Assembly (NCBI GenBank): GCA_905618895.1
Contig: CAJQTA010000001.1
Span: 1-64,000, forward strand
DNA from: an uncultured Candidatus Pelagibacter sp.
GTDB lineage: Bacteria > Pseudomonadota > Alphaproteobacteria > Pelagibacterales > Pelagibacteraceae
Direction: 5' to 3'
DNA: 64,000 nucleotides
The notes beneath the pieces are model-generated. The model worked only from the letters and a program-made list of their open reading frames with translations, had not been told where the DNA came from and ran no database searches. The position numbers were made by a program, and so were the translations under genes. Positions 28,656-41,233 of the stretch are shown here, one piece after another; within the stretch, counting starts at the first letter, position 1; each line of letters starts with the position of its first letter.

Positions 28656-29123
28656 TTATTCAATTGTAACAGTACCTTGTAGTTGATTAGCAGCAGTAGC
28701 ACATGCGGTAACCATACATGATTTAACCGTTATAACTTTGCCTGAACCATTGATACTTATTTGTCCTTCAACAAATGTTGTGCCTGATACTAACGCAGCA
28801 CCTTGAGTGTAAGGATTTTTATCTGTTGCATTAGCTATTAAGGCAGCTGCAGCAGTTACACCACCAGTAGCACTACTAATAGCAGCACAGTTTGCTGTTG
28901 CCGACCCAAATGCTTTACCTGTAGTGCCTTCTAAAGTACATTTTTGAGCTTCTGCAGCAGCATATTTTAATGTTTGGGCATGCATTTGTTTAATTACATT
29001 TTTCTTAGCAGATGCCGTGTATCCATTATAAGCAACAACACCTACTGCTGCTAAAATTCCTATAATTGCTACAACAACTAGCAATTCAATAAGTGTAAAA
29101 CCTTTATTTTTAATTTTTTTCAT
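28656..29123 (-). CDS. pilA: Type IV pilin, probable major subunit
   Basis: The protein has 155 residues. The leader MKKIKNKG is cut before [33 protein letters not shown]. The head is small and rich in Ala, Gly and Thr, with two Cys pairs (KCTLEG ... NCAAIS; CMVTAC), consistent with a compact major pilin. It stands alone with a 90-base upstream gap next to pilC-pilB, the usual place for the major subunit. Assignment as the major pilin is inferred from composition and position. Confidence 0.85.
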   Translation of the reverse strand: MKKIKNKGFTLIELLVVVAIIGILAAVGVVAYNGYTASAKKNVIKQMHAQTLKYAAAEAQKCTLEGTTGKAFGSATANCAAISSATGGVTAAAALIANATDKNPYTQGAALVSGTTFVEGQISINGSGKVITVKSCMVTACATAANQLQGTVTIE

Positions 29124-29212
29124 TAAATCCTTTTTAGTGTTTTATATTAATAATATTATGGAGATTATACTCAAAAAGGTCAATAAATTTTATCAAGCCT
29201 AATGACTAATAA

Positions 29213-30445
29213 TCACCCAATTATCGCACCAACGTTAAATATAGGCGCATACATAGCTAACATTAGACCACCAATAGTGATCCCCATAAATACGATCATT
29301 ATGGGCTCAATTAAGCTTGCAAGGTTGGCAACAGCCACATCAAATTCTTCTTCGTAGTATATGGCAATAGAGCCAAACATTTCATCCAAGCTTCCTGTTT
29401 GTTCACCCACTGCTATTAATTGACTAAAGGTTGTTGGGAATATTTTTTCTTTATTAAACAAATCCGTTAAACTTTCTCCTGAAAAAACTCCCTTCTTAAT
29501 TCTTTCTAATGCCTCAACAACAATTACATTGTCAGTTACTGATTTTGCAATATCTATACTCTCAATTAAATCAACCCCTGCTTGGTTAAGGTTTCCTAAA
29601 ACTAAGGATACTTTTGCTAAAATTGATTTTTGAATTAAATTTCCAAAAATAGGAAGCTTCATCATAATACGATGCCAATTTTTTCTCACTTCATAATTTT
29701 TTTTAATTAAAAATTTAAAACCAAATACAAAAGATATAATAAACATAAGTAAAAAAATTCCACCAGAAGAACGAACAAATTCACTCATAGACATAATAAC
29801 AGCTGTTGGTGTTGGTAGATCATCTGCCATACCCATGCCTTCATACATATCTACAAAAGTTGGTACAACATTCATTAACATAAAAACAGTTACTAAAATT
29901 GCAACTGAAAATAAAACACCTGGATAAAATAAAGCACTTTTAATTTGTGATTTAATTTTTTCTCTTTTCTCTAAATTGATTACTATTTTTTGTAAAAAAG
30001 TATCAAGTTTACCACTAGCCTCCCCTGCTTTGATTAAATTAACAACAACTGTATCAAAAATTTTCGAGTGTTTTTCAAAACATTTTGACAATGCATTTCC
30101 GGATTCTAAATCTTTTTTTATAGTTGAAATAACTTTTTTCATGGGAGGTCTTGATGTTTGACCTTCTAACATATCAAGAGTATTTAGAACAGGCAGTCCA
30201 GCTCTAAGCATAGTAGCAAACTGTTTACAAAAAATTAAAATTTCTTGTGGCTTTATTCCAGTGCCAAAACTAAAAGAAGTTTTTTCTTTTTTAATAACAA
30301 CTTTCTTTTTTTTAGCTTCCTTTAATTTTGTGATAATAACTTTTTTGTCTTTAAGTTTATGAGCAGCCTCTGCATTATTTAGGGCTTCAATTTCTCCCTC
30401 AACATATTTACCAAGAGCTATTCCTTTATATTCAAAATTTAACAT
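29213..30445 (-). CDS. pilC: Type IV pilus inner membrane platform protein PilC
   Basis: The protein has 410 residues and two GspF repeats, each with a cytoplasmic helical domain and membrane helices. Residues 78-200 start FCKQFATMLRAGLPVLNTLDML and GNALSKCFEKH; the second repeat has LGNLNQAGVDLIESIDIA and EQTGSLDEMF. Three membrane helices are visible (VLFSVAILVTVFMLMNV, FLLMFIISFVFGF, MIVFMGITIGGLMLAMY). It anchors PilB and PilT. Its start overlaps the pilB stop at 30445. Confidence 0.94.
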   Translation of the reverse strand: MLNFEYKGIALGKYVEGEIEALNNAEAAHKLKDKKVIITKLKEAKKKKVVIKKEKTSFSFGTGIKPQEILIFCKQFATMLRAGLPVLNTLDMLEGQTSRPPMKKVISTIKKDLESGNALSKCFEKHSKIFDTVVVNLIKAGEASGKLDTFLQKIVINLEKREKIKSQIKSALFYPGVLFSVAILVTVFMLMNVVPTFVDMYEGMGMADDLPTPTAVIMSMSEFVRSSGGIFLLMFIISFVFGFKFLIKKNYEVRKNWHRIMMKLPIFGNLIQKSILAKVSLVLGNLNQAGVDLIESIDIAKSVTDNVIVVEALERIKKGVFSGESLTDLFNKEKIFPTTFSQLIAVGEQTGSLDEMFGSIAIYYEEEFDVAVANLASLIEPIMIVFMGITIGGLMLAMYAPIFNVGAIIG

Positions 30446-32154
30446 TAGCTAGATTGTAAAACTCTTTCATATTCTGCAAATGAAAGATCACCACTTAACA
30501 ACATTTCTTGCCCCATATCCTGCATGGTCCTAAAACCATTTTTTTTAGCTATCGCATTTAATTCATTTTGTTGAAGGTTTGATAAAATCCCTGCTTTTAA
30601 TTCACTTTCAATTTCAAGAATTTCATAAATTCCCATTCTACCCTTGTAGCCAGAACCACCACATTCATCACAACCACCACCCTTATAAATTTTAGCTCTT
30701 GCTGATTGTTCTGGTAAAAATCCAATAGAATTTAGGAGTTTAGGAGTAATATTTTCATCAATTATACGGCATTCTAAGCATGTTTTTCGAGCTAAACGTT
30801 GTGCCATAATCAATGTTAAAGCTGCAGATATTAAATAGTTTGGGGTTCCCATATTTAATAAACGAGTAATAGAGCTTGGAGCATCATTAGTGTGAAGCGT
30901 ACTAAATACTAAGTGACCAGTTAAAGCAGCTTTCAAAGCGATATCTACTGTTGCCTTATCCCTGATCTCTCCAACCAAGATCACCTCCGGATCTTGACGC
31001 AAGAAAGATCTTAGTGCCTCCTCAAAAGTGTAACCAATTGCCTCTTTAATTTGTACCTGGCCAATTCCTTCCATTTCATATTCAACAGGATCCTCTGCTG
31101 TTAAAATGTTCATACCTGGCTTATTAATATGTTTTAAAACACTATAAAGAGTTGTTGTTTTACCACTCCCTGTTGGACCAGTAACAAGCACCATCCCTTG
31201 AGGTGATGAAATAGCTTTAGTTAATTTTTCTAAATCTTTAGCTTCAAAGCCAAGGTCAGCTAAAGCTTTGTCTCCTGCATCTTTATTTAATATACGCATT
31301 ACAACACGTTCTTTATTTTTTGTTGGTAAAACCGAAACCCTTAAATCAATTTCTTTTGTATCAGATTTAAATGTTGAAGCACCATCTTGAGGAACTCTTC
31401 GTTCTGCTATATCTAATTTGCTAATTATCTTAACTCTTGCAATAACCGCATCATAGTTTTCATGTAAAAACTTTGAATATTTATCTATCACTTTTAAAAT
31501 GCCATCTACTCTAAATCGTGTTTGTGCACTATTTCTAAAAGATTCTATATGAATATCACTTGCTCCCATATTGATAGCTTCAGTAATTAGTTTATTTCCA
31601 AAAACAATTACTTCTGAACCAACCTCAACTAACTCATCATTAGTTTTTTCAAGCTTTTCAACTTTTACATTTGCATCAGATATTTTTTTTGTTTCATTTT
31701 TTGTAAATCTTTCAATAAAAGAATTTATATTGCTTATGGATGCAGCATATAATTCTGGCTCCATCTTTGTCATTGTTTTTAAGTTTTTCATCAAACTTAA
31801 TTTTGATGCATCTGCTATTGCAATTTTTAAAACTCCACTGCCCATTTCAAATGGAACAAGTGAATTATCTTGAATATATCTGATATCAATAATTTTTTTA
31901 ATCTTTGGATCTATTACAGTTTTTTTTAAATCTATAATATCCATAGAATAGTTTGTTGATAAAATTTTTACTATCTTATCTTCATCAGTAAAATTTAATT
32001 CAAAAGCAGTTTCTAATTTTGATTTTCCTATTTCAGCGCTTGTATTATTAATCTTAGTCATTTGCTCAGTTGAAATGGATGAGCTCTCCATTAGCATATT
32101 TAAAATATTTTGTTCACTAGTGGCATCTAATTTAGTTTTGCTCATCTTATTCAA
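30445..32154 (-). CDS. pilB: Type IV pilus extension ATPase PilB
   Basis: The protein has 569 residues. It has an N-terminal MshEN-type domain, then the AAA-type motor with Walker A GPTGSGKTTT, Asp box DPVEYEMEGIGQVQI, Walker B SFLRQDPEVILVGEIRD and the His box STLHTND. The zinc site CLEC ... CDEC is present as in PilB/GspE. It drives pilin addition. The start overlaps the end of the secretin gene by 8 bases (32147-32154), so translation is coupled. Confidence 0.95.
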   Translation of the reverse strand: MNKMSKTKLDATSEQNILNMLMESSSISTEQMTKINNTSAEIGKSKLETAFELNFTDEDKIVKILSTNYSMDIIDLKKTVIDPKIKKIIDIRYIQDNSLVPFEMGSGVLKIAIADASKLSLMKNLKTMTKMEPELYAASISNINSFIERFTKNETKKISDANVKVEKLEKTNDELVEVGSEVIVFGNKLITEAINMGASDIHIESFRNSAQTRFRVDGILKVIDKYSKFLHENYDAVIARVKIISKLDIAERRVPQDGASTFKSDTKEIDLRVSVLPTKNKERVVMRILNKDAGDKALADLGFEAKDLEKLTKAISSPQGMVLVTGPTGSGKTTTLYSVLKHINKPGMNILTAEDPVEYEMEGIGQVQIKEAIGYTFEEALRSFLRQDPEVILVGEIRDKATVDIALKAALTGHLVFSTLHTNDAPSSITRLLNMGTPNYLISAALTLIMAQRLARKTCLECRIIDENITPKLLNSIGFLPEQSARAKIYKGGGCDECGGSGYKGRMGIYEILEIESELKAGILSNLQQNELNAIAKKNGFRTMQDMGQEMLLSGDLSFAEYERVLQSS

Positions 32155-33700
32155 TCACTCTAGGTGCAATAAAGATTAATAATTCGACTAATTCATCACT
32201 ATTATTTTTGCTTTTAAATAAGTTTCCAAATACCGGTATTTTGCTAACCCCTGGTGTTTTACTATTCGTATTGTTTGTGGTGTTCTTTTTAATACCACCA
32301 ATTACTACAATATCTCCATCACTTACTAAAAGTTTTGTGACAATTGAATTAGTTTTAATTCCTGGTTCGTCAGATCCAGCAACTGTTACCGGAGAGTCGT
32401 TATTGACCTTTATATCTAACAATACGTTGCCATCTCCTATTATGCTTGGGGTAACTGTTAAAGATAGTGCAGCTTCTTTGAATTCAGTAGTTGTTGTTCC
32501 ATCTGCTGTTGTTTGATAGGCAATTTGTGTTCCTTGAGTGATAGTTGCTTCCTGGTTATTTAATGTAAACACACTTGGTTGAGAAAGTGTTTTACTTAAA
32601 CCTAAAGACTCCAATGCCTCAATTTCAACTTTAAGAGCACGTGCTCCAATTTGTCGAAGTATTCCAATTCCACTTGTTCCAGAAATTCCTTGATTTGAAA
32701 TAGTTCCTGCCGCAGACCCTAAAGCTATATCTCCAGCAGTTGCTGCTGCATTTCCTCCAGATGTCATTCCTGAAATAGTAGTTGTTCCCTTAGCGCCTCT
32801 TTCACTTACACTCATCGCTCCAACTCTAGCACCTAATGCTTTTGCAAAAGTAGAAGTTGCATCAATTATAAATGCTTCAATTAAAACTTGTTTAGTTTTT
32901 ACATCAATTTCTCTTATAACTGCATCGATAGTATCGAGGTCTGGTTCGTGACCTCTAACAATTATTGATCTAGTAGTATCCTCTACTGTAATTGAAAGGT
33001 TAGACATAGTACTAGCACCCTCTGCACCTTGTGTTGCAAATAAAGCTTCTAGTGTAGTCTTTGCTTGAGTAGGACTAATATAATATAATCTAAATATTTC
33101 AGCTAAGATCGGCTCAACAGACTCTTCTAATTGAATTTTTTTCTTTAATACTTCCGCTCTTGCAGATTTTGCAGTTTCTTGTGCAGTTAATTTTTCAGGA
33201 GTATGAACTCTTATAATTCCATTAACAACATCAACATCAGCCACTAAAGTTTTCATATCTAACAAAGTTTGAAAAGCAACATCCCAACCAACATTATAAA
33301 TTTTAGCATTTACTGTGCCACTTACTTCATCCCCTACTAAAATATTTATATCTGCTATATCTGCCATCATTGACATCACATATTTAAAATCTAAGCCTTG
33401 AAAATTAATATTAACCATTTGTTTAAGGTGAGGGTATTCATCTGAAATATAGACATAATTTTTAACATTTTCAGTTGTTATCGTTTTACGTTTATCTTCT
33501 CTTGGTATGCTTGTGTCGTAAGGTTTAGGACCATCAATAACCTTCTTGTCCATATCGGCACGACCATCAACAATAATCTTAGCTGTATCAATTAAAGGTT
33601 TATCACCATGAACTGATTTTGGTTTTTGTCCAGGTGTTACACAAGATTGTAATAGAACGATAAATGATAGTGCTATTAAAATTTTAAAATATTTATTCAT
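32147..33700 (-). CDS. pilQ: Type IV pilus secretin (PilQ/MshL-like)
   Basis: The protein has 517 residues and is an outer membrane channel for the pilus. The signal peptide ends with a lipobox (IVLLQSC), suggesting a lipidated secretin of the MshL/BfpB kind. Then come the secretin N domains (INFQGLDFKYVMSMMADIADINILV), an N1 domain (RLYYISPTQAKTTLEAL) and the C-terminal barrel with LKVEIEALESLG, VFTLNNQEATI and IVVIGGIKKN. There is no AMIN domain, so it is shorter than classic PilQ. It is followed by pilB and preceded by pilP at a 3-base gap. Confidence 0.92.
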   Translation of the reverse strand: MNKYFKILIALSFIVLLQSCVTPGQKPKSVHGDKPLIDTAKIIVDGRADMDKKVIDGPKPYDTSIPREDKRKTITTENVKNYVYISDEYPHLKQMVNINFQGLDFKYVMSMMADIADINILVGDEVSGTVNAKIYNVGWDVAFQTLLDMKTLVADVDVVNGIIRVHTPEKLTAQETAKSARAEVLKKKIQLEESVEPILAEIFRLYYISPTQAKTTLEALFATQGAEGASTMSNLSITVEDTTRSIIVRGHEPDLDTIDAVIREIDVKTKQVLIEAFIIDATSTFAKALGARVGAMSVSERGAKGTTTISGMTSGGNAAATAGDIALGSAAGTISNQGISGTSGIGILRQIGARALKVEIEALESLGLSKTLSQPSVFTLNNQEATITQGTQIAYQTTADGTTTTEFKEAALSLTVTPSIIGDGNVLLDIKVNNDSPVTVAGSDEPGIKTNSIVTKLLVSDGDIVVIGGIKKNTTNNTNSKTPGVSKIPVFGNLFKSKNNSDELVELLIFIAPRVIE

Positions 33701-33703
33701 TTA

Positions 33704-34141
33704 CTATCCATCACTCGGTTTAATTATATTATTCATATAAACTTCAAAAAGATTATTTGCTCCATCTTGAACAATTACAAAATCAGAATAAATATTTCTT
33801 ATCATCGTGGTATCTGTAATCGCTTGATCTTCTTCATATTTATACGCTCCACCATCAGCAGCTGAAAAAACTGCTATTTGTTTGTTTTCACCTATAATTG
33901 TGCCAACCAATCTCATATTATTTAAAAGCCCATTATTTGAGCTTACCTCCGTATCTGTTCCACTTGCTTGATTTGTAGAACCAACTCCTCCTGCAAAAGG
34001 ATCAATTGCTGGCAACTCTTCATCATCTAAAGAAGAATGATCATCTGCTTTTAAATTTAACATTTGGAACTGACAAAGCATAATTGTCATTAAAAATATT
34101 AATATTTTTTTATTATTTATATTCATTTGGTAACCCCACAA
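33704..34141 (-). CDS. Type IV pilus assembly protein PilP-like
   Basis: The protein has 145 residues with an export signal (KKILIFLMTIMLCQFQML). The C-terminal half (MRLVGTIIGENKQIAVFSA, then VIVQDGANNLFEVYMNNI) matches the PilP beta-domain that links the inner membrane PilMNO complex to the secretin. The N-terminal acidic part is unstructured, as in PilP. Position between pilO and the secretin supports the call. The gene overlaps pilO by 29 bases. Confidence 0.8.
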   Translation of the reverse strand: MWGYQMNINNKKILIFLMTIMLCQFQMLNLKADDHSSLDDEELPAIDPFAGGVGSTNQASGTDTEVSSNNGLLNNMRLVGTIIGENKQIAVFSAADGGAYKYEEDQAITDTTMIRNIYSDFVIVQDGANNLFEVYMNNIIKPSDG

Positions 34142-34775
34142 TTGAAACAGTACCTTTTGATAGAATTTGTCCTTGAATTTCAGCTATCGTTGTAATTTCC
34201 TCCTTATCAAAATTAATAACTTTTTGAGATTTTGATAAAGCTCTTCTAAATTTAAGATAGCTTAAAAAATTTCCTTGTATCTCATACTCAACAGGAATTT
34301 TATAATACATCACATTTTGCCCGTCTTGATTTTCTGTTGTTTGTTCTGTGTTTTGATCTTGCCCATCTCCAGTAACAGCTTTTGGTTTACCTTTTTTAAG
34401 ATTAGTTATTGACAAACCATTGATTAACGCAAATTTGCTTATATTTTGATAAAGATCTTCAACTTCTTTTTTACTATGAAAAAGTTTACTATTTTTATCA
34501 TAGTCAGGTTCTAATTTTTTAACGGTTGCTGTTAAAGTACCAATATTATTTTTAAACTCTCCAATCTTTATTTTGTTTTCATTCATCAAACTAATTTGCT
34601 CTTCTTGTTGTTTTAATATCGGTGATACAAAAGCATAATAACCTATCAAAAAAATTAATACAGCAGCAAAACCAACACCAAATTTGATTAGAGTTTTTTT
34701 ATCACCCAAACCACCACTTTTAAGTTTTGCAAATATATCATTTAGATCTAAATCTTTTAAACTTGCTAAATCCAT
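34113..34775 (-). CDS. pilO: Type IV pilus assembly protein PilO
   Basis: The protein has 220 residues. One membrane helix is at about residues 32-50 (FGVGFAAVLIFLIGYYAFV), followed by a coiled coil (LKQQEEQISLMNENKIKIGE) and a ferredoxin-like domain (YYKIPVEYEIQGNFLSYLKF). This is the PilO architecture, and it pairs with PilN. Its start abuts the end of the pilM-pilN fusion (shared position 34775). Confidence 0.9.
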   Translation of the reverse strand: MDLASLKDLDLNDIFAKLKSGGLGDKKTLIKFGVGFAAVLIFLIGYYAFVSPILKQQEEQISLMNENKIKIGEFKNNIGTLTATVKKLEPDYDKNSKLFHSKKEVEDLYQNISKFALINGLSITNLKKGKPKAVTGDGQDQNTEQTTENQDGQNVMYYKIPVEYEIQGNFLSYLKFRRALSKSQKVINFDKEEITTIAEIQGQILSKGTVSIVGLPNEYK

Positions 34776-37078
34776 TATATCAATTTCAATTTACAATTAA
34801 TTGTAAATCCCTTTTTATTATTATTACCTGATGCTTGATCCCCAGTTTGATTTTTCATCGCAGCCAATGAGGCTTGTTCAATTAATGATTTTGCATTTAA
34901 ATTTGAAATAAAATTTAAAATATCTTGATCAGAAAAAGCAACCCCTTCAATAATTAAACTATCTTTTCCATCAAAAGTCATTTTCGTAAATTGTACTCTT
35001 TGAGGAACGCTCCTAGTTACTTGTGCTAATGATCTATAAGATCTTGCTTGATTTGAATTAACTAATTTTCCAAGATCCAATGCAAGCTGCATTTCTTTTC
35101 TTTTTTTTGCTAATTTTGAAAATTGAATATTCATTTTATCAAATTCCATTTGCACTTGATCAAATTCTATTAATTTATCTTTATTGCTACTAATCTGGAA
35201 AAATGAAAAGACTGTTAATATCAAATAAATACCTGCAATCGCACCTGCTGCACCTTTAAAAGCAAAACCAGATAAGAACTTTACCTTATTTTGCTGACGG
35301 ACAGCGTCTCTATTAGGTAATAAGTTTATATTTTTAACAGCAGTTACAAACTTATAATAACCAAATACATCTAATTTTCTGTAAGCTAAACCAAGTACTG
35401 ATGATAATGGTGATTGATTATCACCAGATATTTTTTCACTATTATAAGAAGGTATGCTTATACTTTGCAGGGGATCAAAGTTAATAAAATTTGTTGTTGG
35501 TAAATTCTTTTTAAATACCGGAAGTATAAATGAAATATTTTTTAGGCTAGAGACTACTTGAATAGATGTAATTTTATTTTCATATTTACTTTCATAATCG
35601 GTAATTGCTTGTTTAACTTGCATCGCATATCTTCTGATAACTGCGTCTGCCTCAGTTGAAAGTTGTTCACTTTTAATATCCTGAATATGTTCTTTTTCTT
35701 GAGGTCTTAAAAATATATCAGTAATTACAGGAATATTATTATGAATAATCATTACATAGTTTTCATCTGTACCTAATTCTAAAATAGCTGAATTTCCTTT
35801 ATTTGTAATAGATTTAAATTTTGTATTATCGTGTGCATTCTTTAAAGTAAAACAACGAACATCCATAATAACCGGATTAAGTCCAGCTTTTTTAGCAATA
35901 GATGAATAAGCATTTACATCAGCTAATTTTGAAGCAACAAATAAAATCTCCATTGTATTAGTTTTAGAATTTCTATTTATGATTTGATGAAAAATTGAAT
36001 AATCATTTAAGTTATCTGTAAGTTGAACTAGGTTGTCCCAAAGAGAATCTGTTTCAATCGCTTTCTGCAATTCATCATCTGTCATTAGTGGGCTGGTAAC
36101 TACTCTAATAATTGCACTAGTTACTGGAATCGATAATGCGACATTTTTTGAAGTAATTTTTGCATTAGACAAAGCTAATTTAATTTCTTCAGCCAAGTAA
36201 TCTTTGTGTTCTAAAAGGTTTTCACTGATCTTTTCTTGATCCAATAGACGATAAGAATATTTATCTAATATCCATTTTTCATCTTTATCTTGAGAGACTT
36301 GAGCAACTCTAATTACTTCTCTTGTCATATCTAAACCGGCTATTTCTTCACCAGCAACACTTAATTTACTAACTTTAGATTGAAAGAAGTTTTGAAAAAC
36401 TTTTTTTAACTTATTTTCTTTTGTTTTTTGATTTTTATCTTCTCCAGCTACCTCTTCACTGGTTGAGTTATTATTTTTGGATTTAGAAAATTTAAAATTT
36501 TTTAACTTTTCCAACATACTAATTGCTACGCCTTTTGTAGGTTCTTGCATAGCTACTTTGGATACCTCTGAAATAGGAGCTGCGCTAACAACATCATTAT
36601 TTTCTTTGGTTGTTGGAATAACTGAATCATTTTTGGGATTATTCTCCTGATTTTGCTCAATAACTTGTTCTTTAACTGGAATATTCTCATTTTTCTCTAA
36701 TTGAAGCTCATCAAACCACTTTTCCAATATTGGTATTGCTTCTTCAAGATTAGGTGTTCCTGATGAAGAGATCTTTTGTTTACCATCAATATATAGTCTT
36801 CCGACCCAATTTTTTGATTTTAACTCACCCTTATACTTGTCTTGTCTTATATATATATGTAAACGGCCATCTTTCTTGTGAATTACCTCGTGCTCACTCT
36901 TTTTATCAACTTTAGATTGTATTTCATCTTGATTGCCAATTATTTGTACATTATTAGGAGTATTTTCACCTTGAAGTTGATTTTCTTCAATGGTGCTTTT
37001 TTTTTCAGTATTTTTTTCCAACTGACTGTCTAAATTATCATTATTTTTTTCATCAATCATAATTTTATAAAAATACAC
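34775..37078 (-). CDS. PilM-PilN fusion protein with extra N-terminal domain
   Basis: The protein has 767 residues, three units in one chain. Residues about 75-135 (GRLHIYIRQDKYKGE, NWVGRLYIDGKQKISSSGT, EEAIPILEKWFDEL) form a small beta-alpha unit that resembles DNA-binding AP2/integrase arm domains by eye. Residues about 243-570 are an actin-like PilM domain (EIAGLDMTREVIRVAQV, ALSIPVTSAIIRVV). Residues about 600-767 are PilN: a short NLLPNRD motif, a membrane helix (AAGAIAGIYLILTVFSFF), a coiled coil and a ferredoxin-like end. In most bacteria pilM and pilN are separate. An alternative start is MIDEK at 37060. Confidence 0.85.
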   Translation of the reverse strand: MYFYKIMIDEKNNDNLDSQLEKNTEKKSTIEENQLQGENTPNNVQIIGNQDEIQSKVDKKSEHEVIHKKDGRLHIYIRQDKYKGELKSKNWVGRLYIDGKQKISSSGTPNLEEAIPILEKWFDELQLEKNENIPVKEQVIEQNQENNPKNDSVIPTTKENNDVVSAAPISEVSKVAMQEPTKGVAISMLEKLKNFKFSKSKNNNSTSEEVAGEDKNQKTKENKLKKVFQNFFQSKVSKLSVAGEEIAGLDMTREVIRVAQVSQDKDEKWILDKYSYRLLDQEKISENLLEHKDYLAEEIKLALSNAKITSKNVALSIPVTSAIIRVVTSPLMTDDELQKAIETDSLWDNLVQLTDNLNDYSIFHQIINRNSKTNTMEILFVASKLADVNAYSSIAKKAGLNPVIMDVRCFTLKNAHDNTKFKSITNKGNSAILELGTDENYVMIIHNNIPVITDIFLRPQEKEHIQDIKSEQLSTEADAVIRRYAMQVKQAITDYESKYENKITSIQVVSSLKNISFILPVFKKNLPTTNFINFDPLQSISIPSYNSEKISGDNQSPLSSVLGLAYRKLDVFGYYKFVTAVKNINLLPNRDAVRQQNKVKFLSGFAFKGAAGAIAGIYLILTVFSFFQISSNKDKLIEFDQVQMEFDKMNIQFSKLAKKRKEMQLALDLGKLVNSNQARSYRSLAQVTRSVPQRVQFTKMTFDGKDSLIIEGVAFSDQDILNFISNLNAKSLIEQASLAAMKNQTGDQASGNNNKKGFTINCKLKLI

Positions 37079-37084
37079 TTTTTT

Positions 37085-37418
37085 TCTAACACAAAAAAAC
37101 GAATCTCTAACACATCTCTAACACATCTCTAACACAAACTATAAAATTATCTATAATTTAATTATAATTTAGTGCTCAAATCAGGCTATTTATAAAAATA
37201 ATGTCAAAATGATCAATAAAATCAACATTTTTTATATAAGATGAAAATAAAGTAATTTTTTTAGTAAATTTTGTTGATTCTAACACAAAATAAATATTAA
37301 AATTGTGTTAGAGTTAAATTATTTTATAATATATTAAAATGTATGAAAAATATTGCATAAATCAACACTTTTAACAATTTAACAAATTTGTGTTAGAGTA
37401 ATCAGTATTTGTGTTAGA
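37085..37418. repeat. Array of eight 9-base repeats before the pilMN operon
   Basis: TCTAACACA occurs at 37085, 37106, 37117, 37128 and 37279; its reverse complement TGTGTTAGA is at 37304, 37389 and 37410. The copies at 37106, 37117 and 37128 form an 11-base tandem, 37085 to 37106 is 21 bases and 37389 to 37410 is also 21. The pair at 37279/37304 can form a 10-base stem. No gene lies in this 350-base gap (37079-37429). It may be a regulatory array or an RNA structure; function is not known. Confidence 0.85.
37169..37184 (-). promoter_or_regulatory. Shared upstream element, copy 3
   Basis: The + strand TTTAGTGCTCAAATC matches the core of the two elements before autotransporter genes (TTAGTGCYCRAAT). 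It lies inside the repeat array, about 90 bases upstream of the PilM-PilN start. Only the 13-base core is shared, so confidence is modest. Confidence 0.45.
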
Positions 37419-37429
37419 CTTTTTTGGCT

Positions 37430-40400
37430 TTAATAATTTTCTTTCCAACTTTCAAGTTGAACTGCTCCTGAAATTTCTTGTGCCTTAGATTTACCTGTAA
37501 TTAGGTTATCTTTTGCTGTAAATCCATCAATATTATTTTTAGCCTCTCCAGCTAGACCAATATATAGGTTATCACCCTGTTTTACAACTTTTGAGAGTAC
37601 TCCTTTACCCATATTCACATTAAGTAATGATTCACCACACTTTGTGTCATAGGCAGTTAAATAAGCATTACCTACCCCACATTTGTTATTTGTAGCACTT
37701 GGCTCGTATAACGGGAAATATACCCTATCTCTATCTACAGTTGGTTCAGAAGTTAATTTTTTTGCATTATCAAGGTCAACATACCAACCTAAATCAGTCC
37801 CAGATGGACATGTAGGTGCTGTTTTGCACATTGAAACATTACCGGTTGGATTAACCTCTACAAAATTTGGAAAGTTCACATCTTTTATACCATAAATTCT
37901 ATTTTGTATCTGACTTGATTGTGCTTGAAGCTTTTGGGTGTTTCCAGTTCCAAAATATAACCATAAATTGTTATCACTGTTGATTGTAACCTCTGGTCTT
38001 GTAAAAATATTCCTTCCATTTGCAGAAGTAGCTTCAGCTGTAAACAAAGTAGTTTGATGTATTTCTTTATCTGATGCATCGGAACGTATAATTGAATTAT
38101 AGGTAGAGCTATTTTGATCAGTATCCATAACAAAGTCCTCTGTTAAATCAATTTTAGTTATTTTACCCTCTAAGTCTGTTGCATAAATCAATGCTCCATT
38201 ATAATTTGCTTTATTAGTGCCATCTGCGGTAATGATACTTAAATCTGCAGGTAAAGAATTAACTACATCATTTTCCATTCTTGTAAATTTAACTGTACCA
38301 GAGCAAGAAATTCCTTGATCACATGGCCAAGGAGTATCAAATGTTATTTTTGAAATTCTAGATACAGTTCCATTGACAAGATAATCTATTATATGACCAA
38401 CAGGTGGATCAAACTCAACTATATGTGGCATTTCACCGTTTGCTGAATCATGTTTTATATTAGGATCCAAATGTGTGTGAACCTCAAGTACAGTATTGTT
38501 ATTAGTCAACTGTCCTTCCGCAGGAACCCTACTATACAAAGTGTAAAATCTATTGTCAGTGATTACATCTTTATCTTCTATATCAATTACTTTTAATACT
38601 TTTCCTTCATTTTCTAAATCTATTACAAATACAGCAGAGCCAACATTAGGATTAACAGCGCCATTGTATCCTCCACCAAAAACTGCAACCCATCTATCCT
38701 TACCATCAACTTTAATTCTAATAATTCTTGGAGTTGACCAGGTTTCTCCTAACTTGCTATAATCATATTCTGGAGCAACATTTCCAGCTACATAACCAAA
38801 TTCAAATTTACTCGCATTGACATCCCAATGTTCGACAAATTTATTAGTTTCATCATTGTTAAAAGCAAATAAGTGAGTAGGACTACTTGGATCTGTAACA
38901 TCAAGTGCAAACATACCTTTTCCACCTGCACCAAGCCCACTTAAAAGAATTGTTCGCCATCTTGGATTGTCTACGCCATCATTTGGAGTATCATCAAAAT
39001 AAATATCTTTAGCGACTGGAGAACCATCTATACCATAAATAGCATTTGTCGAATTAGCCTTGCTAGATGGGATCTTTTCGAGGACACCTAAAACATTTGG
39101 TGGAATATATCCCCATAACTCTTCACCATCTGATGCTTTAAATGCATGAAGAATACCATTATTGGCTCCAGCATAAATAATTTCTGCTCTATTAGCACAT
39201 GGTCCCCCACAAGTTGCTCCACTTTTAAAATTATTATAATTATTCTGCAATCTATAATATGAGTCTTTTTTCTGAGAATTAGCAGTATTATCATCAACTG
39301 CTGATGCTTCTGGATTTGCAACTACAATTAAATCAGAATGATAAATATCTGCAAGCTTATGTATAGACTCTGTTGTGTTATTATCTGCATCTTGATCATA
39401 AGTATCTATACCTCTAATAAAGTTTATTAAATTATCAACTTCGGTATCTGTTGGTGTTATATTAGGAAACATTTTTGATTTTAAAAGATCACTGTTAGCT
39501 GTTGTAAAATTATTTAAGCCAGTACCAATTTCTGGGGTCCATATATTTCTTGTAGATGAGGTTTTAGAATTTAATTTATCTGCAGCATCCCACAGAGCTG
39601 AACCAAAAGTACCATCAGTATTTAATTGATACTTTTTCAAACTTCCTTTCCATTGTTTGTCTGTTTCGTATTCAAATGTCGATTGATAGACAAAATTATT
39701 CCTACTTACATCTGACATTACTGCAGGAGTAGTAAAGGTTAGTCGACCTGAGATAGCTTGTTTAATTGCATCTGTTATTTTTGCAAGCAGTTCTGTTTCA
39801 TTTTCTGCATAAAGAGGGCTTGTAGTTCCTCCAGCAGTTGCTAGTGCAGAATAATTACTATTAGATCCACCTAAAGCATAACCTACAGCAAAAGTTTGAA
39901 TATTATCCACCCGCCTGATTTGATTAGCAACAGTAACTACTTCGTGGTTTGATGACCAATATCCATCACTTATTACTATTAAAAAATTTAAAGAACAGGT
40001 TAAATCCCAATTATCAACCACGCCACTTCTAAAATAATCTCTTGCAGTTCTCATAGCTCTAGCAAGGTTGGTTCCACCATTTGCACTAATACCATCTACA
40101 TTTGAATAAATGAATCGAGCTCCATTATTTGTAATTCCAACTCTTATATTGGCACTAGAACTCCATTCCATTAAACCAAAATTTGCTCCAGCTGTTAGAT
40201 TGGTATCAGAAACTATTTGCTTAATTACTTTCTTAGCACTAGACAATTTTGTTCCTGATTTTCCTCCAAATGTTGCTGTTTGAGTTAAACTAGTGTTAAA
40301 TTTTCTAGCAGTCTGATTAGTAAAATCTGCAACATAGATATTATCACTACTATCTATAAACATTCCATAAGGATTATAAAATGCAGACGTTCTAGAAAAT

Positions 40401-41233
40401 GATCCTTGTTTTGCTTGGTAAACTAAAGATGAATTAAATTTTTGTATTCTGTCATTATCTCGTTCTAAGACATATATATTTCCACTACTATCATAAGCTG
40501 CGTCTACGGGTCTATTAAAAGATCCATTCGCTGAAGATTGTGAAGTGCCAGCTGCGTTAACATAGGTAAGATTATTTCCAGATACTGTAAATTCAAAAAC
40601 TTTATGGTTATGATAAGATGCTACTAGCAGTCTATTTCCAGCACTATTTAAAGACATACCTATGGATAAATTGACACCACCAGCAACATTTTGATAGCCA
40701 GTTCGAGCTAAGTTACCTGTCGCAAGTGTTTCAATTGTATTGCCATAATGTCCAACAAAAACATAATTACTATTAACAGCAATTCCCCATGGTCTAAGGT
40801 AAGCAGTGAGACCACTACCAATACATTGACCAGTTAAACTAAGCTTTAAAACTCTATTGCCTTGCAGGTCTGCTAAATAAACTTGATCGTTAAAAATTAC
40901 AAATTGCCTTGCATATTTCCATTGATTACAACCAGATCCATAACCTCCAAAACTTCTAAGATATGTTCCTGCGCTATCAAAAACCTTAATTCTATTATTT
41001 GAATACTCCAAAACATAAACATTTCCTGAACTATCTGCTGCAACGTCTATCGGATATTGTGTTACTGTGTTACTGACTAATGTATCCCTCATACTTCCAG
41101 ACTTATCCAACATAATTAAAATGTTTGCTGGAATATCTGTGGTTCCAGTCCCTGGCGGAGGACTCTTAGCTTGTGCTTGAAAGCTAAATAAAAATAAGAA
41201 TAAAAAGATGATTACTGTTGAGAGTCTAGCCAT
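37430..41233 (-). CDS. pilY1: PilY1-like pilus tip/adhesin protein with NHL propeller
   Basis: The protein has 1267 residues with a signal peptide (STVIIFLFLFLFSFQAQA). A von Willebrand A domain starts with the metal site DKSGSMRDT near residue 43, but is interrupted at once by six or so NHL repeats (VAADSSGNVYVLEYSNNRIKVF, MFIDSSDNIYVADF) before it resumes with FGLMEWSSSANIRV. The PilY1 C-terminal propeller follows (IIYAGANNGILHAFKASDGEELWGYIPP; LLSGLGAGGKGMFALDVTD; VAVFGGGYNG). It probably sits at the pilus tip or cell surface and regulates retraction and adhesion. Its start overlaps the 41212 gene by 22 bases. Confidence 0.9.
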   Translation of the reverse strand: MARLSTVIIFLFLFLFSFQAQAKSPPPGTGTTDIPANILIMLDKSGSMRDTLVSNTVTQYPIDVAADSSGNVYVLEYSNNRIKVFDSAGTYLRSFGGYGSGCNQWKYARQFVIFNDQVYLADLQGNRVLKLSLTGQCIGSGLTAYLRPWGIAVNSNYVFVGHYGNTIETLATGNLARTGYQNVAGGVNLSIGMSLNSAGNRLLVASYHNHKVFEFTVSGNNLTYVNAAGTSQSSANGSFNRPVDAAYDSSGNIYVLERDNDRIQKFNSSLVYQAKQGSFSRTSAFYNPYGMFIDSSDNIYVADFTNQTARKFNTSLTQTATFGGKSGTKLSSAKKVIKQIVSDTNLTAGANFGLMEWSSSANIRVGITNNGARFIYSNVDGISANGGTNLARAMRTARDYFRSGVVDNWDLTCSLNFLIVISDGYWSSNHEVVTVANQIRRVDNIQTFAVGYALGGSNSNYSALATAGGTTSPLYAENETELLAKITDAIKQAISGRLTFTTPAVMSDVSRNNFVYQSTFEYETDKQWKGSLKKYQLNTDGTFGSALWDAADKLNSKTSSTRNIWTPEIGTGLNNFTTANSDLLKSKMFPNITPTDTEVDNLINFIRGIDTYDQDADNNTTESIHKLADIYHSDLIVVANPEASAVDDNTANSQKKDSYYRLQNNYNNFKSGATCGGPCANRAEIIYAGANNGILHAFKASDGEELWGYIPPNVLGVLEKIPSSKANSTNAIYGIDGSPVAKDIYFDDTPNDGVDNPRWRTILLSGLGAGGKGMFALDVTDPSSPTHLFAFNNDETNKFVEHWDVNASKFEFGYVAGNVAPEYDYSKLGETWSTPRIIRIKVDGKDRWVAVFGGGYNGAVNPNVGSAVFVIDLENEGKVLKVIDIEDKDVITDNRFYTLYSRVPAEGQLTNNNTVLEVHTHLDPNIKHDSANGEMPHIVEFDPPVGHIIDYLVNGTVSRISKITFDTPWPCDQGISCSGTVKFTRMENDVVNSLPADLSIITADGTNKANYNGALIYATDLEGKITKIDLTEDFVMDTDQNSSTYNSIIRSDASDKEIHQTTLFTAEATSANGRNIFTRPEVTINSDNNLWLYFGTGNTQKLQAQSSQIQNRIYGIKDVNFPNFVEVNPTGNVSMCKTAPTCPSGTDLGWYVDLDNAKKLTSEPTVDRDRVYFPLYEPSATNNKCGVGNAYLTAYDTKCGESLLNVNMGKGVLSKVVKQGDNLYIGLAGEAKNNIDGFTAKDNLITGKSKAQEISGAVQLESWKENY

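Follow-up and report, generated by a model that had tools for sequence, protein, structure and literature searches.

A fused PilM-PilN pilus platform protein of many SAR11 bacteria carries an additional N-terminal domain, and our analysis suggests that this domain is a sequence-specific binder of double-stranded DNA that acts on an array of eight short sites ahead of its own gene, with several chains bridging the two site clusters and exerting negative autoregulation on the pilMNOPQBCA operon. We put the probability of this reading at roughly two in three. Binding of the domain to the array is strongly supported by sequence comparison, and the platform probably controls its own operon; we infer the direction of this control (repression being likelier than activation), together with the looping, the repression and the coupling to assembly state that the proposed circuit would involve. 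The gene was found in a 64-kb window, the whole stretch of DNA analyzed, from an uncultured Candidatus Pelagibacter sp. (SAR11; assembly GCA_905618895.1, contig CAJQTA010000001.1).

The PilM-PilN fusion and its operon

A first-pass annotation of this DNA had described a single frame of 767 residues comprising an N-terminal unit, PilM and PilN. Our analysis confirmed this architecture and placed the gene, for which no strand had been given, on the minus strand, the plus strand over 34775-37078 being full of stops. The 767-codon open frame at 34775-37078 counts from a GTG at 37078, from which PilMN residues are numbered throughout. The true start is probably the ATG at 37060, which we prefer because it matches the start in close relatives (MIDEKDNNN in L109). 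The features of the gene and its operon are as follows.

28656..34775 (-): remaining operon genes after pilMN, i.e., pilO, pilP, pilQ, pilB, pilC and the major pilin gene (ORFs; Pfam)
34775..37060 (-): pilMN fusion gene, 761 aa from the ATG at 37060, stop at 34775
36893..37060 (-): residues 7-62, an acidic N-terminal tail; predicted to be disordered, unconserved (10-31% identity)
36701..36892 (-): residues 63-126, the predicted DNA-binding domain resembling an integrase arm; beta-beta-beta-alpha with a basic sheet (+6) and an acidic helix (-4)
36350..36700 (-): residues 127-243, a flexible linker of low complexity; predicted to be disordered, unconserved
35324..36349 (-): PilM actin-like part, residues about 244-585 (PF11104 and PDB matches)
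35315..35332 (-): NINLLP, the PilN NLLP motif, within the same chain as PilM; invariant in the alignment
35198..35254 (-): single transmembrane helix, residues 609-627 (hydropathy; helix also in the model)
34778..35323 (-): residues about 586-767, the PilN part, including its periplasmic ferredoxin-like domain (PF05137)

Residues 248-449 matched PilM_2 (PF11104) with an E value of 1.5e-16 (60.7 bits against a cut-off of 27), and the PilM part matched the PilM structure PDB 3jc8 (E 9.8e-17). Membership in PilN is evident by a profile match at residues 684-764 (PF05137; E 7.9e-12, 45.5 bits against a cut-off of 22.8), by the NLLP motif, which in PilN is the site bound by PilM, and by one transmembrane helix. 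The AlphaFold2 model of full-length PilMN was of low confidence (mean pLDDT 58) and was used for domain order alone. The PilM-PilN fusion was present in 111 of 300 genus genomes, about half of them without the N-terminal domain, and it was intact in relatives of the window. The fusion emphasized by the first-pass annotation is real, yet it is not special to this gene, as domain-less SAR11 relatives have the same fusion; alone it is ordinary for SAR11, and the N-terminal domain is the new element. A distant, domain-less PilMN-like fusion of 590-596 aa with 24-25% identity was also seen in four genomes (L010 in G012, and G098, G113 and G287) and is perhaps part of a second pilus system.

The genes from pilMN to the major pilin gene overlap or nearly so, which places them in one operon; the PilP call comes from a sub-threshold T2SSC match alone (Pfam). 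Upstream of pilMN lie pilY1, pilX-, pilW- and pilV-like genes, fimT, pilT and pilD. The PilY1-like protein (37430-41233) has NHL repeats and a von Willebrand A domain ahead of the PilY1 propeller, and the PilB-type ATPase (30445-32154) carries an MshEN domain, a binder of cyclic-di-GMP in other bacteria.

A conserved N-terminal domain related to integrase arms

Residues about 63-126 make up a unit that is independent and highly conserved. In comparisons of the window with the second domain-bearing clade, identity was 83-95% in the domain, compared to 53-57% in PilM, 40-50% in PilN and 10-31% in the tail and linker. Identical amino acids shared identical codons about 50-66% of the time in the domain, about as often as in PilM, and recent transfer was consequently rejected as the cause of its near-identity. 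Because the domain is near-identical in amino acids while its synonymous sites have diverged, the data indicate that the N-terminal domain is under strong, long-standing purifying selection. Such constraint is as expected for a surface tied to eight fixed DNA sites.

An AlphaFold2 model of the domain, built from 12 sequences, showed three main beta strands and a C-terminal helix with a mean pLDDT of 87, i.e., the three strands and one helix of the arm-binding (AB) domains of tyrosine recombinases (PMC8138268). Invariant residues of its sheet include HIYVR and WVGR. Matches to PDB folds were not significant (best E 0.24); the weak ones were to double-stranded RNA-binding domains (dsRBDs) in PDB and to integrase and homing endonuclease among viral models. 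No Pfam family matched the region even at E 10, including the arm-domain models of clan CL0081, and no significant Pfam, PHROG or PDB family was found, the match to PHROG 17986 being weak (E 0.0012). It has been reported that Pfam overlooks the AB domain in some integrases (PMC8138268). Since formal family matches fail, assignment to the arm-binding class rests on homology to integrase N termini. The first-pass annotation had likened the unit to an integrase arm or an AP2 domain; the AP2 identity was rejected, there being no Pfam AP2 match, while the resemblance to an integrase arm was borne out by its closest cellular relatives outside PilMN.

These relatives, the closest outside PilMN and a small phage protein, are the N-terminal domains of two SAR11 tyrosine recombinases. 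The single diverged non-PilMN match was a 425-residue tyrosine recombinase that begins with the domain (L072 in G138) and in which Phage_integrase (PF00589) scored above cut-off; the second (L194 in G361) is 69% identical to it. The integrase domain shares 58% identity with the window's domain over the alignment. Such integrases are rare, with 2 among roughly 700 genomes searched, and each apparently constitutes an islet of an integrase gene alone, inserted in tRNA-Leu (CAA): approximately 1.4 kb comprising the 5' half of tRNA-Leu, about 110 bp, the integrase gene and the intact tRNA-Leu (CAA). As judged from these sequences, the PilMN domain shares ancestry with the arm-binding domain of tyrosine recombinases, with recruitment from an integrase as the likely direction. 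Like the AB domains of the lambda Int and Tn916 Int type, the domain is N-terminal in the two SAR11 integrases, consists of three strands and a helix, and is accompanied by multiple short repeats near the gene, 11 bp apart or multiples thereof. Unlike them, the copy in PilMN has no Pfam AB match, is detached from a recombinase and heads a pilus platform protein; it is followed by PilM and PilN alone, and the catalytic domain of tyrosine recombinases is absent.

The domain also occurs in a protein of approximately 115 residues, with a C-terminal membrane helix, encoded by IMG/VR phage contigs (L189-L193). No array above control was found on these contigs, and the small phage protein might act on the host pil array. 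No named phage record with the domain or the integrase was found. Among 230 sampled genomes of Alphaproteobacteria, the window's own alone has the domain. A bin labelled Gammaproteobacteria (L185) contains a SAR11-type domain and is probably a mis-binned contig.

A phased array of sites that accompanies the domain

The gap between pilY1 and pilMN (37079-37429, approximately 340 bp) contains 8 copies of TCTAACACA. The first-pass annotation had pointed to a repeat array just upstream, and the array is real: all 8 copies in the 64-kb window fall at 37085-37418, compared with 0.67 by chance. Its elements are as follows.

37085..37093 (+): copy of TCTAACACA in the proximal cluster
37106..37114 (+): proximal copy, part of the 11-bp direct repeat
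37117..37125 (+): proximal copy, part of the 11-bp direct repeat
37128..37136 (+): proximal copy, part of the 11-bp direct repeat
37215..37226 (-): conserved GTTGATTTTATT element lying between the two clusters; similar copy near 37355-37366
37279..37287 (+): copy in the distal cluster, in opposite orientation to the three that follow
37304..37312 (-): distal copy
37389..37397 (-): distal copy
37410..37418 (-): distal copy

A logo of 655 sites reads CTCTAACACAAA. Pattern searches, the method used for all genome-wide motif counts, covered six whole genomes and showed the array to be the only cluster of TCTAACACAA, with stray single sites at the level of a reversed-pattern control. The GTTGATTTTATT element is present twice within the array region of most relatives and has an IHF-type look by eye; it is possibly the site of a bending protein. 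One HU/IHF-family gene was seen in the window's own genome. A consensus promoter scan of the gap performed no better than shuffles, and the position of the pilMN promoter is not secure; in relatives, a TTGACC-18-TATA-like pattern was observed by eye directly in front of the proximal cluster.

Most of 94 upstream regions from different genera share a conserved eight-site plan, in which sites lie 21 bp apart, followed by a step of approximately 86 bp, an inversion at 24-25 or 34-35 bp, a long gap, and steps of approximately 22 and 21 bp. Distances between same-strand sites follow a 10.7-bp period (R 0.81), as do inverted distances (R 0.79). In 54 less redundant arrays, the long gap took values of 115-118, 125-130, 136-139, 148-153 or 161 bp and none between, a quantization reached in 0 of 5000 simulations even with each distinct value counted once. 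Because spacings shift in whole helical turns, the sites would be bound by protein as DNA; the presence of both site orientations and the period indicate binding to one face of double-stranded DNA, spanning the two clusters.

We surveyed the same 300 genus genomes for the domain and for motif pairs. The domain was found in 61 and motif pairs in 57, all of which carry the domain. Paired sites were present in 56 of the 59 genomes with domain-bearing PilMN and in none of the 52 with domain-less PilMN (Fisher 1.7e-28 among PilMN genomes, a value that shared descent inflates). Of the three exceptions, G167 and G227 combine diverged domains with arrays of variant sites, for example TGTAACACAA, and in the third (G276) the sequence is cut by a contig end. 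The fourth domain-positive, motif-negative genome is G138, where the domain is on the integrase rather than PilMN. When 24 domain-less pilMN genes were checked (23 with upstream sequence, L253 being truncated at a contig end), no exact site was detected; one gene had a single upstream site with one mismatch. In a single-cell genome (L166), a domain-bearing PilMN lacks both tail and array and starts with MKREHEV beside the neighboring gene; this may be an assembly chimera or a real deletion. In a tree of the PilM-PilN core, whose rooting is unsure owing to long branches, domain-bearing sequences fall into two deep clades, one of which has a domain-less clade as its neighbor, suggesting at least about two joint gains or losses of domain and array.

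The att regions of the two integrases contain closely similar sites. Their 110 bp include CTCTTACACTA or CTCTTACATAA, followed 11 bp on by TCTTACACAAA, plus an inverted TTAACACAA-like copy; these sites are one base from the pilMN motif and repeat the 11-bp step of the window's 37106-37136. The near-identical motif is TCTTACACAA, and the two att regions contain 3-4 sites that differ from the array motif by no more than two mismatches, in excess of chance (P 0.004 and 0.0005). The pairing of this domain with nearly identical sites in two unrelated settings is our strongest argument that the domain reads these sites. Altogether, co-occurrence, phasing and the att-region motifs indirectly support that the domain binds repeated arm-type sites, and the link between the N-terminal unit and the upstream array, raised as speculation in the first-pass annotation, has gained from all three.

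A proposed autoregulatory circuit and its alternatives

In the circuit that we propose, the domain would reside in the cytoplasm on a flexible tether of approximately 120 residues from the inner-membrane PilM-PilN part and would bind the phased (C)TCTAACACAA sites ahead of its own gene. Several chains would occupy the distal and proximal clusters on one helix face, probably bridging them, to form a loop over the pilMNOPQBCA promoter; given the TTGACC-18-TATA-like pattern in relatives, protein bound at the proximal cluster would act as a roadblock. Platform protein not engaged in pilus building would thereby repress its own operon, and engagement with PilO, PilP and the motor would alter the availability of PilMN for DNA. 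Because pilMN is the first gene of the operon, negative feedback via unengaged platform protein is the simplest circuit. A more far-reaching form, which we consider possible but doubtful, is that a phased nucleoprotein array anchors the locus to the base of the working pilus, so that expression would read the assembly state without a separate sensor or regulator.

Precedents exist for parts of this arrangement. Arm-bearing integrases located at tRNA genes act as repressors of their own promoter, and IntS of KplE1, an integrase-type binder, acts at sites overlapping its own promoter (PMC2951348), as PilMN may do; in contrast to IntS, PilMN is a component of a membrane machine rather than a soluble recombinase, and its array is no recombination site. 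Transmembrane transcription regulators such as ToxR, CadC and Rsp are common and mostly combine a helix-turn-helix with a sensor (PMC10269533). PilMN has their layout on prediction, with a putative DNA-binding domain and a transmembrane helix in one chain, but its partner is a structural pilus part and its DNA domain is integrase-like. In type II secretion, the single-chain functional equivalent of PilM plus PilN is GspL, and PilMN has been called a GspL orthologue (PMC4471445). Both comprise a cytoplasmic actin-like part, one transmembrane helix and a periplasmic ferredoxin-like part, whereas SAR11 PilMN has the predicted DNA-binding domain in front. In the open-access literature, where a failure to find is weak evidence of absence, we found no SAR11 PilMN, no DNA-binding PilM, no integrase-derived pilus regulator, and no platform protein of a pilus that has both a DNA-binding domain and an operator of its own. 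We know of no GspL or PilM with a DNA-binding domain in front. PilMN may be a membrane-tethered autoregulator built of parts not known together before.

An unlikely alternative is that the array serves as a tether rather than an operator. The domain would then pin the pil locus to the membrane where the pilus machine sits, with the effect that platform proteins are both made and inserted at the place of pilus assembly, or that the positions of chromosome and pilus are linked. It would account for a membrane-anchored putative binder with long flexible linkers, for one locus per genome, and for phased sites in numbers beyond the needs of a simple operator. However, the array accompanies pilMN and is located in the promoter region of that gene, a position that autoregulation explains without more. 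The distance to dnaA is also not fixed (323 kb in G320 versus 96 kb in G426), which disfavors a chromosome anchor near the origin.

We consider it very improbable that domain and array are merely linked neighbors inherited together, with another protein bound to the array. Tight linkage makes co-inheritance easy, and the tree needs about two joint events; on the other hand, two integrases in an unrelated genomic place combine the same domain with near-identical att motifs, the domain is under extreme constraint, and domain-less PilMN genomes are devoid of paired sites. Binding of the domain to leader RNA merits scarcely any weight: the fold resembles dsRBDs in weak PDB matches and the proximal sites may fall in the leader, but sites occur in both orientations and well upstream, the 10.7-bp period fits double-stranded B-DNA, and no Rfam family was found in the gap. 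Least credible is a role in DNA uptake, a link raised as speculation in the first-pass annotation, in which the domain would bind incoming DNA and the motif would serve as an uptake sequence, since, although type IV pili mediate DNA uptake in other bacteria, the domain is on the cytoplasmic side with PilN as the periplasmic part, and in six genomes the motif forms one cluster per genome with strays at control level instead of being scattered, on which basis an uptake sequence system was rejected.

If the autoregulatory reading is correct, a part of the pilus machine would regulate its own operon, and assembly state would be coupled directly to gene expression in SAR11, a group with small genomes that is among the most abundant of ocean bacteria. 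The host would also have taken over an integrase domain of a mobile element together with its DNA sites, in a clean case of such recruitment, and the domain and array offer a ready-made protein-DNA pair open to testing.
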